Origin: Telopea speciosissima
Lineage: Eukaryota; Streptophyta; Magnoliopsida; Proteales; Proteaceae
Reading direction: 5' to 3'
Assembly (NCBI RefSeq): GCF_018873765.1
Contig: NC_057922.1
Location: 12,723,563 to 12,787,562, forward strand
DNA length: 64,000 nucleotides
Below are positions 33,985 to 40,838 of this stretch, piece by piece (within the stretch, counting starts at the first letter, position 1; every line of letters begins with the position of its first letter). Made by a program: the position numbers and the translations under genes. The notes below the pieces were generated by a model, which worked only from the letters and a program-made list of their open reading frames with translations, did no database searches and was not told where the DNA came from.

Positions 33985-36900
33985 CTAATATGGGACATTG
34001 TTGGGGAGATTCCGGATGACATTACTCTTCATTCCCATCTTGCTACGCATGGCTTCCACACCTGACCTATTCATCTCCCGCAACACCTTCATCCTTACAA
34101 TCGGCTCTTTTGACTGCACTGTTGCTAAGCCCATGCTCTTGTACCTGAAAAACAGAGGACAACCCATTGTCATCACATAATTATTTAGTCTTATTATTAC
34201 TTCCTTCAAATACAAGAGGACAGAAGATACAGACTTTTTGGCTAATGCAATAGCAATGGCAACATCTCTTCTAGGTGAGGGATGCGGTTTCTGGCGGTAG
34301 TAGCGCAAAAATTCCCAAGATCCGAGAGTTTTAACTGATATCCCACCATCCATTTTTCTTGTCAGCACTAGCTCAGCCCCACCACTTCCAAGTTCAACAG
34401 AGTTGTCCATGTCTTCCACTGTGACCAGCTGTTTCCCATCTCCATCCGCATAACTATAAGGGGGGAAACAAAACATCCAGTGACATCAAACATAAGTATC
34501 ATTCGTTTAATAAGGAAATAGGGACTAATGGAATGGATCCACCATCAGAGATGGGATCTGAAATTAATGGATTAGAACCAAGATTAAACCCTCTTTTTTT
34601 ACTGGGTTTGGATCTTAAAATCAGATATTTAAATGGAATGGATCCACCATCTCAGATCTGATGATGAGGCTGCAGATTAAACTTGGATCCATAGTTAGAG
34701 AGAGAGAGAAAAAAATTGGCGGTTGGATCTGATCAAAAGCTATAAAAACTCTTTGAAAAGGAACCGTACATAACATAATGCATGCTATCTTGGAGAGTTA
34801 TGTCGATAAAAACCTGTGGCTATAATCATAAAATTCCTCCAACTCGGCTTCCTCATCATCACTCCCATCCCCATAATGTACTTTGCAATGACTTTTTGCC
34901 TCCATATGCTTCCTCACTGCTTCTAAGCTGTTGAAGGAATGGCACTTGTCATTGCAATACAAGCACATGAAATCCCTTTTAACCTGTAAAAACAAACAAG
35001 TACATGAATAGTTCACGTAATTAAATGTGAAAAAGCAAAGATTACAAGCAAGAAACAAGAAAACATTCCAGTACCTTAAGCCCAAGATAAGTAAGGAGGC
35101 CCTTGGGATCCTTCAGATACTCAATATCGGGGATGAAAAATCCATGTTGCTTGTGCATGTGAACCATGCAGCTTTCTATGTTATCATGTTTTAAATCACA
35201 CATAAAGCAACAGGAAGGTTCCAATTCTTCTTCATCATCATCATCATCTTCATCCATGTCATCATTTGAGGCTTCATCCACATCCAACTGGGTTAATGAA
35301 TCAGTGGCTTCATCAACCAAATAGTCCTCTGCGTTGATTTCCTCCCACTCATCTTCACTCTCTTCATTCTCCTCGTTGTTAGCAGCCTCTCTTCGTGGGG
35401 CAGGCTTATTAGCAGCACGGCTTTGGAGAGGCTTAATCACTGTATCTCCAACACTTGATTGTGATGCCCGCATGAGATGAGTTCTTGATTTAAGATGTTG
35501 AGCATGCGCTTTCACACTTCTATAACCTTTGGCACATAGAGCACAGCTGTATAGCATAGGAGTCTCCTTTGACTTATTTTGTTCTTGGGCTAATGCAGCT
35601 TGCCTAGTTAGAAACAATGCTTCAGTCACTCCTGGAACGCCTGCAACCTGGTGAAAATGCATATATTAGAATTTCTACAGTTTGTTTAAACTCACACAGT
35701 GCATATAATAATAATTTTTAGAGTAAATTTCTTGGACACCCCCTGTACTATGGCCATTTTGCTTACGATTACCAACGTTTGAAACAATTACTTGAACACC
35801 CCCTGCAGTTTACCATTTCTTTCAAGTAGGTCAAGTCCGTCAGTTTAGTGATGATGTCATTGGTTAAATTTTTTGTAATACCTAAACTACCCTAAAAGGG
35901 TACTGAAGTGACAGATTTACCCCCTTTCCACAAACAAAAAAAAAGAAAAAGACAGATTTACCCCCTCCTCCTTCTTCTTCTTCTTCCTGCAACCATATCT
36001 GGACTTAATCGCATCGGACATGCCCTTGAGCTTCTCAGGATTGCGACCCACCAACACCAAATTAAGATGTTTCCGGGCCAACTCCAAGGCCAACCCCTTT
36101 CCGATGCCGTCTGTGGGTCCGGTCACAAGTGCCCAGGAACCGTATTTCTTGAGATCCTTTGCAGGTCTCAAGGAGTAGATGTAAACCCATCTGAGGGACT
36201 CTAAGCCAGACTGGAGCACCAGGAGGAAACCCAGAACCAAGGGCACCAAAACCCAAAAGGGCTGAGCTTTGACACAGAGCTCCATCTTTCTGTGAGAGCT
36301 CCAGTGAGACCGTGACCTTTCCTGCTTAATACAGAGCTCCATCTCTCAGATACAGTGAATGATTAATGAGCGGTGGCAGTGAGACCGTGACCTCTCCTGC
36401 TTAATTAATGATGTATTGATTAAACTCACTCTTAGTCCAGACATTGATCCCAAACCTCGATTTCAGAAAATTTTCTCTGTTTTTAAACAAATTTCAAATC
36501 AAAATAACTCAAATCCTTCTTCTTCCTGTAACCCACCGATTTCAGATTCAAACTCTAATCAATTTCAGAAAAAAGCAGAGTCTTGACAGATGTTTAGGGT
36601 TCGAATGAGGTTTCATTAAATTCACCTGCAGAGCTGCAGAGTACAGAGAAACATAAATCTCAGATGGTCATTAGTTTTTTTCATGAACCCATCAATGTGA
36701 CAATGTCTCCTTGAATCCCAGTGTTCCTAATTCTCAAAACCCAGATTTTATACCCTTTTGTTCATTTGGGTTTTTTCCAGATCGTAAGAGCTGCAACGAA
36801 GAACAGAGCTGTACCAGTAGTACTGGGGTGTCTTCTCATTTGAGCTTCTACGGATTGTTTTTCCTCTATTTTTTCGTCTAGGTTCAGGACTGAATCCCAA

Positions 36901-39900
36901 TTTGAAGTACCCTTTCCCTCATTTCTCAAAAGCTTACATTTGGGGAGAATCCATGTTGTTTTGGTGAGAGGATTGGTATAGGAAGTCTTTTATGTCTCAG
37001 GAACCATTCTTCTCATGGATTCAGGTGGTTTGGACAGCGGTGAGAGAAATGTTTGGTCTAAGAACAGATTGGTTTCTCCAAAACTCCATCTTGTAGAAGA
37101 GAAAAAGGAAAAATCAGATTCAAAACCTTAATCTGAAAATCGATTAAGGGTTTTGGGTTATTTTGATTTGAAATTTGTTTAAGAAAAGAGAAATTTTCTG
37201 AATCAATTAGGGTTTGCAATCAGTAGGGGTAGGGGCGGTGGGTTGCATGAAGAAGAAGGAGAAGGGGGTAAATCTGTCAATTTCACTGTTTTCTATTGAA
37301 TAAGTGATAAGGGTAAAATGGACATTTCCAATTAAATACTAACAGTAGACTAACACCGTCAGTTTTCAGGGGTGTCAAGTAATTGTTTCAAATGCTGGTA
37401 ATCGTAAGCAAAATGGCCATAGCACAGGGGGTGTCCAAGTAATTTACTCTAATTTTTAATAATAACACATACTGTTTGAGTACAAAACAATCTCAAAACC
37501 AGGACATCTTATCAGATATATCCCCCCCCCCCCCCCCCCCCAAAACCCAAAAAAAAAAAACAAAAGGATGGCAATGGAGCAGGTATCACCAATATCACAA
37601 TCTACCTTTTAAAATATTTCATTACCAAAGCAGGCCATAACCAAACAATTAGCTCAGGTACCCACTCTAACCCGCTCAACTGCAGTCCCTACTCCCTTCT
37701 TTCTAAAAAAAGTTGCAATACAAGACCAAACCAAGATCAAAACCACAATACTCTCTCTCTCTCTCTCTCACCTAAAGATCTTCCCAGAAAAAATAACTTG
37801 CATACAGGTTTGATTTGACCATCTTGATCCTACTTACAGACAAGGAGATGGAAGCCATCTGCCAACAAGTTCACAAGAGAAAATTTGACCAAACACTCAA
37901 AAAAGATCAACATGTAAAAAGAATCTCAATTGGGGAAAGCTCAATAATACCCCTCATTTGAGTGAGACAGATACAAGATAATACTCAGCAACTGATACGC
38001 CTAAAAGATGCCCAGGAAAAGGGCCAGAGCCTTTTGCAATTAGCCCAACAACATATTTTGGTTCATTTAGAACATTCAGAAAGTATCAAAGAAATACTGC
38101 CAGTCTTGACCTCCTAATTTGTAATTGTAGCCTATTATCATAATCCCTACCTTTGTTTTGTGTATTTGGACTTCAAAATGAGTAATGAAATGTGCATGGT
38201 TTGGCAAAGTCTCCTATACTTAATGTTGCCATGGTAATCTTAGTGTTGCATTGTTTGGCAACACCACCATCTGTTCCTGCACAGTACCACTCTAAAGTTC
38301 ATTTATCCCATCTTGATCTCAATTATTATTTTCTTTTTCACTTCTTGCCAATTAATGTTTTAACATCTTTCACATTTTTTGTTCTATTTCTTTTTTTGGG
38401 GGGTTGTAGACAAGGATGAGGGATTGGAGGACCTGTGATGTGGAATTCCAGCCATACTTCACTCTCTGCGGTCTGTGGGAATCTTTAAGGAATGGAGTGC
38501 ATATGGCGCAGGGGTGCCTTTAATACTGAACGACAGTGATTGTGTCATTCAATATTATGTCCCCTACTTGTCCGGCATCCAAATATATGGTGAATCAAGG
38601 TCATCGGCCAAGTCGAGGAACTAATGATGTTTCTCATATATATATATATATATTTTCCCCAAGCGAACCATTACTTGTAGACTTAACACACCTGCTGCTT
38701 TTTAACTGTGTATTGTTACAATCTGTTTTGATTATCTGTAGTATTGATTCCAATATCTTGTTTTTGTTTCTTTTAAATGCAATGCTGGTTCCTTAAAATC
38801 TATTTTTTGGTTATTGCTTGGTCAGTTCATGTTGGTGTGTGTTTCTTTCTCTGTAATTTTTGGAGCAATAGGTGGAGCTTCTTGTTCTTTAAACATAACT
38901 ACCTGAGTATATAAAAATAATGAAAAATGCACTACTGTATATATTGATTACTGGACTTTAAATCGTAAAACAGGATGTAGGACAAATATTAAATAACAAA
39001 TTACTAAAAAAAATTTGCTAAGAATAGTACATAGTTAATATTGCAATAAAGATGCTATTTCATCAAACAATTTAATGAGTGTGGCATACAACCTTTCAGA
39101 CACATATAAATCATAAGGAAATCAAAGATTATGGAATGAATATGAAAGCAAGGCATCCAATAACTTGGGCCCAAAGATTACCATGGCAACATTAAACGTT
39201 GCCAACCAATGCACATTTCATTACTCATTTTGAAGTCCAAATACACAAAACAAAGGTAGGGATTATGATCATAGGCTACAATTACAAATTAGGAGGTCGA
39301 GACTGTCAGTATTTCTTTAATACTTTCTGAATGTTTAAACCTGTTTTACAGGTCAACAGTTTGACTTGTCACCTAGGGTCAATATTGGTTAACTTCATAA
39401 CCCAATTTATCTTTCCATGAGGACTATTCCATTAACCTGCACAGATTGAACATTTACAACAGGTTAAACTGGATAGTTGAATTGTTTGAGCTGTAATGCA
39501 CAGCATTTACATGCCCAACAAAATATTGGTTCTAGAGATATAAGCAACCAACTCAATAATATTGGTTCTTGACATATGAGCAAACAACTTGATAAGCTTT
39601 CCACAACTAGCTCTTTTCAAATTGCATGTATATGATTCTCATGCTCAAGAAATTAGGTAAGTAAAATCAGAAACAACATCAGGAACTAATGCTGGTACCT
39701 AAGAATAAATTTACGAGAAAATCTTCGACAACGTTTCAGTATATGGCATAAATGCCATATGCTCTGATTGTAGAGGAATGCAATGCATCCAAAACATTTA
39801 CTATTCCACAAAATAACAAAGTAAATTTCTTGATAGAAGTATACAGCAGAAATAATGTTATTTACAGACTAAATTTCTTGATATATACTCCGCACATTTC

Positions 39901-40838
39901 ATTTAAGACATAGAATTTGAATCTCTTTTGCAGATTCAGTTTATTGTTTATTAAATAATTATATAGATATATATCTGTCATGTTATTGAACCATTTTGAA
40001 TCGTTTGAAAGGGATCAAAAAAATGGCTGAAAACCAACAACCAGATAGTCTAGAAAAGAGAATTGTTTGGTCGCCCTATGGCAACACAGCAATCAAACCG
40101 AGTTAATAAATGTTTAAAAGTATGAACATATTGGATTCGAAATTGCAGGACCTTTGCATTATTCAAAGATTAAAATTCTAGAACAGCAGGTCCTTCATCT
40201 ACACTTTTTTAGATATTTACAATTAAACATTGACATATTTAATATTAAAATTAACAAATAACATGATATTATGAAAAATAATTCTAAAATGTTATCTACC
40301 CCTGGGAAAAAAAAATCTAAAAGGTTAGAGCTGCAAAGGCTAATGAGCCAACCGCCATTATAAGGAGAAAATCAATATTTCAAGAACGCATACAAGGTAC
40401 ACGGGAAGGCTTCTCCCTTGCTCCAATAGTTTCTTTTCTTAAATTAGGTCTAAAAAGAATATCAAAATAACCCATCAAACAAAAACACAATCGGGTCACT
40501 GATGAAAAAACAGAAAATGGAAGGGGACAAGGAAACCTAAGCAGGATACCCAAATTTCTCGAATAGGCAACCGATTTATTCGTCATCAGAATCCCAAATC
40601 AAATAACCCATCAAATTAAAATTTCCTCATAATCATGGTTGTCGATCAAAAAGGAATTCATTAATATAACCTAAAGTTTAATCCAGGAGAAGGCTAAGGG
40701 AATGAAAAATAAAGACGGAAATGGAAAACATACCTTCCTCTTGAGATTGTAACGGTGCCATTCGGATTTGTAATGAAGCTTTTGCTGTAAATCATCTTCG
40801 AATTCCTTATTGCACGCATTGCAGGTGAGCCCTGGCAT
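33985..40838 (-). CDS. REIL: REI1/REIL-type 60S ribosomal subunit maturation factor
   Basis: Five exons on the - strand: 40838-40734, 35647-35075, 34983-34814, 34453-34235 and 34144-33985, all GT/AG with matching phases, giving 408 residues (Arabidopsis REIL1 and REIL2 are close to 400). Zinc fingers in order: [22 protein letters not shown] at the N-terminus, [22 protein letters not shown] near residue 70, [23 protein letters not shown] near 190, and [20 protein letters not shown] near 235. An acidic stretch ([12 protein letters not shown]) precedes the third. The C-terminus holds the conserved YYRQK and the Arg/Met-rich end. In yeast REI1 acts in the cytoplasm on pre-60S particles, recycling Arx1 and probing the exit tunnel; plant homologues matter in cold. 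Intron 1 is 5.1 kb because two gene-capturing transposons sit in it. Confidence 0.93.
35721..37449. mobile_element. Pack-MULE-type element in REIL intron 1
   Basis: Long terminal inverted repeats: the left end begins GAGTAAATTTCTTGGACACC and the right end is its reverse complement, with similarity continuing through GGCCATTTTGCTTACGATTA for about 270 bases (left arm interrupted by the captured DNA). The flanks are a perfect 9-bp direct repeat TAATTTTTA at 35712-35720 and 37450-37458, the length typical of Mutator-like elements. There is no transposase. Inside lies the first exon of a KCR1-like gene (about 35993-36290). Inner arms also match each other: TTTCAAATCAAAATAAC at about 36490 is inverted at about 37160. 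Confidence 0.9.
35993..36290 (-). pseudogene. Captured exon 1 of a KCR1-like 3-oxoacyl-CoA reductase gene
   Basis: From ATG at 36285 the - strand encodes [20 protein letters not shown], a membrane segment, [40 protein letters not shown] and [20 protein letters not shown]. This is the N-terminal part of the very-long-chain 3-oxoacyl-CoA reductase of the ER fatty acid elongase, with the TGxxxGIG NADPH-binding motif intact. The rest of the roughly 320-residue enzyme, including the catalytic Tyr-x-x-x-Lys, is absent. After the residues RYG the frame runs into transposon end sequence. It is open with no stop, so the capture may be recent, and is in the same orientation as the host REIL gene. It is a transposon passenger. 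Confidence 0.88.
37522..37560. repeat. C20 run and A-run
   Basis: Twenty C followed by AAAACCC and twelve A, just outside the right target duplication of the Mutator-type element. The longest C-run in the window. Confidence 0.9.
38068..39335. mobile_element. Second gene-capturing inverted-repeat element in REIL intron 1
   Basis: Inverted arms of about 170-180 bases: the left arm 38072-38245 (opening ACATTCAGAAAGTATCAAAG, containing ACCTCCTAATTTGTAATTGT and TTGTTTTGTGTATTTGGACT) is matched in reverse complement by 39165-39335. The arms are roughly 90 percent identical by eye. I could not find a target duplication. No transposase is present. The interior carries a DUF789 gene fragment. Long arms plus captured gene DNA fit a Mutator-type (Pack-MULE) element, older than the one at 35721. 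Confidence 0.75.
38410..38625 (+). pseudogene. Captured fragment of a DUF789 gene
   Basis: After a pyrimidine-rich tract and acceptor-like GTTGTAG the + strand encodes [15 protein letters not shown], then in a shifted frame [20 protein letters not shown] and [17 protein letters not shown]. This order ([23 protein letters not shown]) is diagnostic of the plant DUF789 family of unknown function. The frame changes once around 38485 and stops follow at both ends, so it is a dead passenger. Retention of intron sequence before the exon shows it was copied from genomic DNA, not from RNA. Confidence 0.8.
39336..40733. other. Remainder of REIL intron 1
   Basis: AT-rich intron DNA. Nothing recognisable as a gene or element was seen. 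Confidence 0.5.

Follow-up and report, generated by a model that had tools for sequence, protein, structure and literature searches.

Intron 1 of a REIL-type gene in the 64,000-nucleotide stretch of Telopea speciosissima DNA analysed here (the window) contains a DNA transposon, at window positions 35721–37449, whose inverted arms lie between the two copies of a perfect 9-bp target duplication. We are highly confident that the whole is best explained as a non-autonomous element of the Pack-MULE kind (a Mutator-like element, or MULE, carrying pieces of host genes), whose passenger was assembled elsewhere at an earlier time, which moved into REIL intron 1 by cut-and-paste, and which has been drifting there as an inert sequence. 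The original prediction had named a Mutator-type Pack-MULE at this place, and every feature of such elements that could be tested was found: long terminal inverted repeats, a target-site duplication of about 9 bp, fragments of host genes with parents elsewhere (candidate donors exist for all three pieces), no transposase within the element (judged on frames of at least 130 codons), arms related to those of a transposase-bearing Mutator-like element, and mobility in the form of ten copies at different sites. By sequence comparison, the element reads as a composite of the 5' pieces of a ketoacyl-CoA reductase (KCR)-like gene, a BT1-like carrier gene and a CHUP1/IPGA1-like gene, the last two of which had been overlooked earlier. 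The feature is thus a clear case of an already known type of element, with donors and surviving relatives that are specific to its family.

Structure of the element

The long inverted arms proposed from the letters of the window held up on alignment. There is 90% complementarity over 90 nt between 35706–35795 and 37375–37464, a span that takes in the target duplication and a few bases outside it. In a whole-genome search, the outermost 82 bp of the element were 94% identical in inverted orientation (E = 1.3e-25), and a gapped alignment of the two ends scored 91, against a maximum of 39 among 200 mononucleotide shuffles. Weaker likeness, with gaps, takes in about 274 bp of the left end and 209 bp of the right end, 182 of 277 columns being identical. 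The left arm (35721–35994, plus strand), looser in its inner part, ends in CTGCAACC at the junction with the KCR piece; the right arm and its inner extension occupy 37149–37449 (plus strand), as delimited by the arm comparison. The target duplication, TAATTTTTA, is the same at 35712–35720 and 37450–37458 and is as perfect as had been stated. Gene capture by a Helitron was rejected as an explanation, since inverted arms and a target duplication are both present. Just outside the right end, at 37522–37541, a run of about 20 C is followed by an A-rich stretch, possibly a weak spot of the assembly.

Passengers and their candidate donors

The KCR passenger lies on the minus strand, in a stop-to-stop frame of 142 codons (35917–36345) that matches the Pfam family adh_short (E = 3.8e-6), in agreement with the stop-free KCR-type stretch described before. 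(A membrane segment and an NADPH-binding motif are presumably present in it.) The capture itself (35992–36285, minus strand) corresponds, in an in-frame comparison, to the first 98 codons of the parent's coding exon 1, and its last three bases overlap the left arm, a microhomology. A search of the genome for the parental gene found the best parent at C3:4871762–4872059 (contig C3), with 95% DNA identity and an open frame of 242 amino acids that extends beyond the captured end. What had been called exon 1 of KCR1 is therefore a KCR-like piece, but not the whole exon: the capture breaks off within the parent's exon, so that only 98 of that exon's codons were taken over and the parent's splice donor is absent from the element. 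From the captured ATG, the open frame (35917–36285, minus strand) encodes 122 amino acids followed by a stop, the last residues being arm-encoded. The upstream remnant (36286–36432, minus strand; 5' untranslated region by position only) has suffered a deletion and contains a duplicated stretch of 29 bp (36302–36330 and 36377–36405). This copy, copy A, has lost most of the KCR upstream DNA, of which two other copies, H and I, keep more. In these two, likeness to the parent reaches about 380 bp upstream of the ATG, interrupted by a gap of about 93 bp. The stretch may or may not extend beyond the transcription start, and a retrocopy of KCR, made from an mRNA without upstream DNA, may be the origin of the piece; the arms and target duplication speak for transposition of the whole.

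The BT1-like passenger is in two parts, both on the minus strand. A 28-bp piece around the start codon (36430–36457) is 96% identical to positions 1456–1483 of donor locus L049, and an upstream piece (36982–37120; 5' untranslated region by position) is 96% identical to C2:64208935–64209074, beside a reading frame that matches Mito_carr (5.2e-19) and ADP/ATP carriers in PDB (2.9e-10). By sequence resemblance, this carrier gene is presumably BT1-like; NCBIfam listed no match for its frame. Between the two parts lies a piece common to another group of Pack-MULEs (36457–36986, plus strand), as judged from its matches to other elements with the same arms. It starts with the remnant of an inner arm (about 36457–36578, plus strand), in which 36468–36516 is inverted against 37149–37197, and continues with the upstream region of the CHUP1/IPGA1-like gene (36579–36985, plus strand; 5' untranslated region by position), 88% identical to C244:49116–49509. 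That stretch sits upstream of a frame resembling CHUP1/IPGA1, a presumed identity; a Pfam search of the CHUP1/IPGA1-like frames gave no hit.

In general, the names KCR1, BT1 and CHUP1/IPGA1 stand for presumed sequence resemblances, beside the Pfam SDR and Mito_carr hits and the PDB matches. For the KCR parent, NCBIfam gave only general SDR-family matches, under their cut-offs, among the matches listed. The candidate donors are on three different contigs (C3, C2 and C244), and each of the three named passengers represents, by position, the 5' end of a gene. Pack-MULEs are reported to prefer such ends. The KCR parent itself belongs to a cluster of KCR-like genes (L017, L020 and L021, at C3:4.87–4.89 Mb), at least three within about 21 kb, with 95, 91 and 90% identity to the KCR region of the element; a fourth, more distant match lies at 4.90 Mb.

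The family of KCR-bearing copies

When the KCR region was compared with the genome at the DNA level, 24 matches were returned. Ten sit in elements with the same arms and three are the KCR-like gene cluster; the others are four more distant matches (72–76%), four short matches (64–130 bp) and three second pieces, which belong to H, I and the parent. Apart from copy A, in the REIL intron, the KCR-bearing copies are B (C8:40.88 Mb), C (C9:12.92), D (C4:41.46), E (C6:5.07), F (C7:15.64), G (C8:58.52), H (C3:2.54), I (C10:40.08) and J (C10:58.33). The nine are 92–96% identical to copy A in its KCR region, and the copies differ from the parent by 4–6% in the KCR piece (9% in D, unrelated tail included). 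The junction between arm and KCR is identical in nine of the ten, F diverging just past it, and D, which has a right arm only, is truncated before it. Since nine copies keep the same junction, the sequences point to a single capture of KCR followed by amplification.

By eye, target duplications free of mismatches are found in A, E, H and C (in C as an A run), B and F have one mismatch and I has two, and in D, G and J the duplication is not clear. The 500-bp flanks show no pairwise match at E <= 1e-5 except between B (L002) and E (L005), which have about 1.5 kb of flanking DNA in common on one side and, on the other, pieces of it spread over more than 1 kb. Judging from these flanks, B and E are products of a larger duplication, not of separate insertions, so the ten copies represent at most nine independent insertions.

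Assembly of the composite

How was the composite put together? Relatives with other sets of passengers survive, and part of the assembly order can therefore apparently be read from their sequences. Elements with one named passenger (BT1 between arms in L051 and L052, and a CHUP1/IPGA1 piece between arms in L039 and L040, all without KCR), two-passenger elements (H and I, in which KCR is joined directly to BT1 and more of the KCR upstream region is present), the three-gene composite (copies A to F, which have KCR, the CHUP1/IPGA1 piece and, on the right, a BT1 piece; E and F are incomplete in their 5' region) and, in G and J, a third KCR combination exist side by side in one genome, together with candidate donors and a transposase-bearing relative. 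The further passenger of G and J (L007 and L019) has no match to the BT1 or CHUP1/IPGA1 donor loci L049, L053, L042 and L045; parts of it recur elsewhere, including at C11:48.73 Mb.

From these surviving relatives, the order of events would be as follows. The 5' end of a KCR-like gene (upstream region and 98 codons) would have been captured once and joined to the 5' piece of a BT1-like gene. Then, in the branch that includes copy A, a piece of another Pack-MULE, consisting of inner arm and CHUP1/IPGA1-like upstream DNA, would have been placed between them. By eye, the joints have 3 matching bases (arm/KCR), 3 (KCR/BT1), 1 (BT1/other element) and 5 (CHUP1-IPGA1/BT1). Such short shared bases suggest template switching: a few matching bases would have directed the joining while DNA was being repaired or replicated. 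Tentatively, and with rather less than even confidence, we regard the family as a surviving stepwise record of the building of a Pack-MULE by this process.

Alternatively, neighbouring insertions could have fused and moved as one unit, a route that has been proposed for Pack-TYPE elements (PMC8903248). Two fused elements would leave an inner arm remnant of the kind found here at 36457–36538. However, KCR is joined straight to BT1 with a 3-bp overlap, and the CHUP1/IPGA1 piece splits two BT1 parts that are almost contiguous in H and in donor L049 (the matches have the same arrangement in I). Simple end-to-end fusion predicts neither the direct KCR/BT1 joint nor a CHUP1/IPGA1 piece within BT1, and the donor candidates are on three separate contigs. 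We therefore consider fusion unlikely, though deserving of some weight, and prefer template switching as the way in which the pieces were joined.

Mobility

Lacking a transposase, the element would be mobilised by one supplied in trans by a relative. Inside the element, no transposase was found: the sole frame of at least 130 codons is that of KCR, with adh_short as its one Pfam match, shorter frames lying outside the Pfam scan. The arms are common in the genome, where a 23-base pattern from the arm end has 494 matches with at most one mismatch, against 0 for a reversed control. A relative that could serve as the source is L068 (C3:57353250–57361790), with 8.5 kb between arm ends and arms that are 81% identical to those of the element over 204 columns (87% over 131). 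It is flanked on both sides, by eye, by the 10-base repeat GTGTTTCTAA, and its longest frame contains DBD_Tnp_Mut (2e-15) and MULE (1.5e-6) domains. L068 was picked from widely spaced arm pairs among 100 listed of the 494 arm-end places, so better partners may exist. Another wide arm pair, L067, has no transposase-like long frame, by eye alone and without a Pfam scan, and a further wide pair on C3 spans 13.9 kb. Among the best 150 of 827 candidate MULE-domain matches, by eye, none is listed inside a KCR-bearing element, and the nearest of those listed is about 24 kb from J.

Age and selection

The capture had been considered fairly recent, on the grounds of the perfect target duplication and the open frame. 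This does not follow: ten elements carry the KCR piece, nine with the same junction, so the capture preceded the insertion into the REIL intron. Nor is the open frame a sign of recency or use. Copy A has seven changes in its KCR piece, and about 5% of random changes are nonsense, so an open frame is expected by luck; the frames are open in A, C, E, G and I and broken by stops or frameshifts in B, D, F, H and J.

The insertion, as opposed to the capture, may be fairly young. Among the terminal branches of a six-copy tree, in which D is truncated on the left, that of copy A is the shortest, at 0.017 substitutions per site against 0.027 to 0.044 for the rest; in a tree of nine copies made from the left part it is again the shortest (0.020, followed by H with 0.021). 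A fairly young insertion is compatible with this short branch. At plant substitution rates of 0.7–1.5e-8 per site per year, 0.017 would correspond to about 1 to 2.5 million years, and more in a slow tree.

Over the 98 codons, with the unrelated tail of D masked, there are 73 changes from the consensus of the copies, of which 51 alter an amino acid, 20 are silent and 2 are nonsense. Under the observed spectrum, 24.9 silent changes would be expected (p = 0.27). If each distinct change is counted once, 19 of 68 are silent (23.2 expected, p = 0.31); without masking, it is 22 of 81 (26.8 expected). C>T or G>A accounts for 48 of the 73. These changes appear to fit neutral drift, as for a passenger, and the purifying selection of a functional coding Pack-MULE is not seen (20 of 73 changes silent, five of ten frames broken).

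Several points weigh against our interpretation, or parts of it. The selection test is weak, using 98 codons and ten copies, two of them sharing flanks, with the consensus as the ancestor, and it would miss constraint on one single copy; the silence of the KCR passenger is something that we infer. The probability of a summed microhomology of at least 12 at the joints is 0.0007 on a simple random-junction model, which ignores local composition, and the test comprises four joints picked by the authors, one of them with 1 bp. The assembly order is not unique, since parts of the 5' region are missing from copies E and F. The CHUP1/IPGA1-like donor is uncertain, with C244 and L045 (C4:59361662) as candidates: the latter matches part of the piece better, at 94%, and has no arms in the stretch examined. 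The arms are the only tie found between L068 and the element, and the transposase coding sequence of L068 is split into at least three frames, two of them without a Pfam match. Finally, an empty site was sought via REIL copies in the same genome, and none was seen. Two other REIL-like stretches, L064 (C3:34.97 Mb, 93.7%) and L065 (C3:58.07 Mb, 81.6%), look from their sequence like truncated REIL duplicates, with unrelated upstream DNA that is common to both; since each stops at window position 35604, ahead of the intron, they are uninformative on it.

The host gene and possible uses of the KCR piece

The host gene is on the minus strand. Exon 1 (40734–40838) ends in LKRK, at phase 0 by its translation, and exon 2 (35042–35647, including a short 3' read-through) begins at phase 0 with VAGVPGV, so that intron 1 (35648–40733, delimited by the exon borders on either side) is a phase 0 intron. 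The exon from 35647 matches zf-C2H2_2, a C2H2 zinc finger, and in PDB ZNF622 (E = 1.1e-16) and REH1 (8e-6); the name REIL, taken from the original prediction, presumably fits this ZNF622-type gene. The element ends 73 bp from the host's 3' splice site, and the passenger has the same orientation as the gene, as was claimed. As the arms and target duplication show, the element came in by ordinary cut-and-paste. The same intron has a second pair of inverted arms (38071–38210 and 39196–39335, 140 nt, 95% complementary, 985 nt between them), probably another DNA transposon.

Is the KCR piece put to any use? It could be spliced into REIL messages as an alternative exon, as suggested earlier, or be translated into a short membrane-anchored KCR fragment. 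The frame of copy A is open and begins with the captured ATG, the piece is on the REIL strand in an intron of phase 0, there are acceptor-like sites within the frame at 36210 and 36200, and Pack-TYPE elements can potentially merge coding DNA with neighbouring exons, as stated in PMC8903248. However, the native donor was not captured. A scan of the element on the REIL strand, against a donor consensus, found four GT sites with at least five of the seven variable donor positions (36937, 36625, 36429 and 35791) and none inside the KCR frame at 36345–35917. The nearest of them, 35791, would give an exon that runs past the stop at 35917. With the parent's donor absent and no such site in the frame, the alternative exon proposed before loses its footing; a coding cassette exon made from the KCR piece is unlikely, a weak donor being possible. 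Half of the copies are broken, with changes that fit drift, and most of the KCR upstream region is deleted in copy A. Altogether, either use seems highly improbable.

Effects through RNA would be of another kind. The antisense action on KCR suggested earlier does not agree with the orientation: the passenger is sense-oriented in the REIL transcript, so copy A would give sense KCR RNA. Jointly, the KCR-bearing copies could give rise to small RNAs by which the KCR parent is silenced. Nine other copies closely resemble copy A in the KCR region, and two-thirds or so of the changes (the 48 of 73 above) are of the type that methylated DNA would give. On the other hand, copies and parent are already several per cent apart in the KCR piece, and the REIL promoter would yield sense RNA from copy A. 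We consider such silencing improbable, if not to the degree of the splicing or translation of the piece. The inert passenger is the reading that we retain: it would drift neutrally, and the element would be removed along with the intron. No function for the KCR piece in the REIL gene is expected, and the element is probably of no consequence for either REIL or KCR.

Comparison with known elements

How plant Mutator-like elements acquire host genes is an unsettled question. The survival of donor candidates, partial assemblies and the final composite makes it testable by sequence alone in this case, and the family should be useful for the study of how such elements are assembled. In rice, there are over 3000 Pack-MULEs, some of them expressed as chimeric transcripts, and small interfering RNA from captured genes has been reported in maize, according to PMC13317346. 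A search of open-licence PubMed Central papers gave no match for a Pack-MULE with a ketoacyl-CoA reductase, and a single one for Pack-MULEs in connection with Proteaceae.

Like the Pack-MULEs of rice and other plants, the element has Mutator-type arms, a 9-bp duplication, pieces of host genes inside and no transposase found; several copies at different sites and pieces from more than one gene are also known from such elements. There is no difference in kind, and what is particular here are the KCR-like, BT1-like and CHUP1/IPGA1-like donors and the surviving relatives. MULEs with additional internal arms, as described in PMC3310237, are similar in that part of a second arm is found inside, and in that copies with and without it coexist; unlike in those elements, here just an inner stretch of the second arm is present, imported with a gene piece from another Pack-MULE group. 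The animal Pack-TIRs attributed to gap filling or template switching (PMC8277862) also have short matches at their breakpoints and become multicopy through later transposition, whereas the present element is from a plant and has three donors. Whether plant Pack-MULEs, too, arise by gap filling or template switching is a question that the same paper calls worth exploring.

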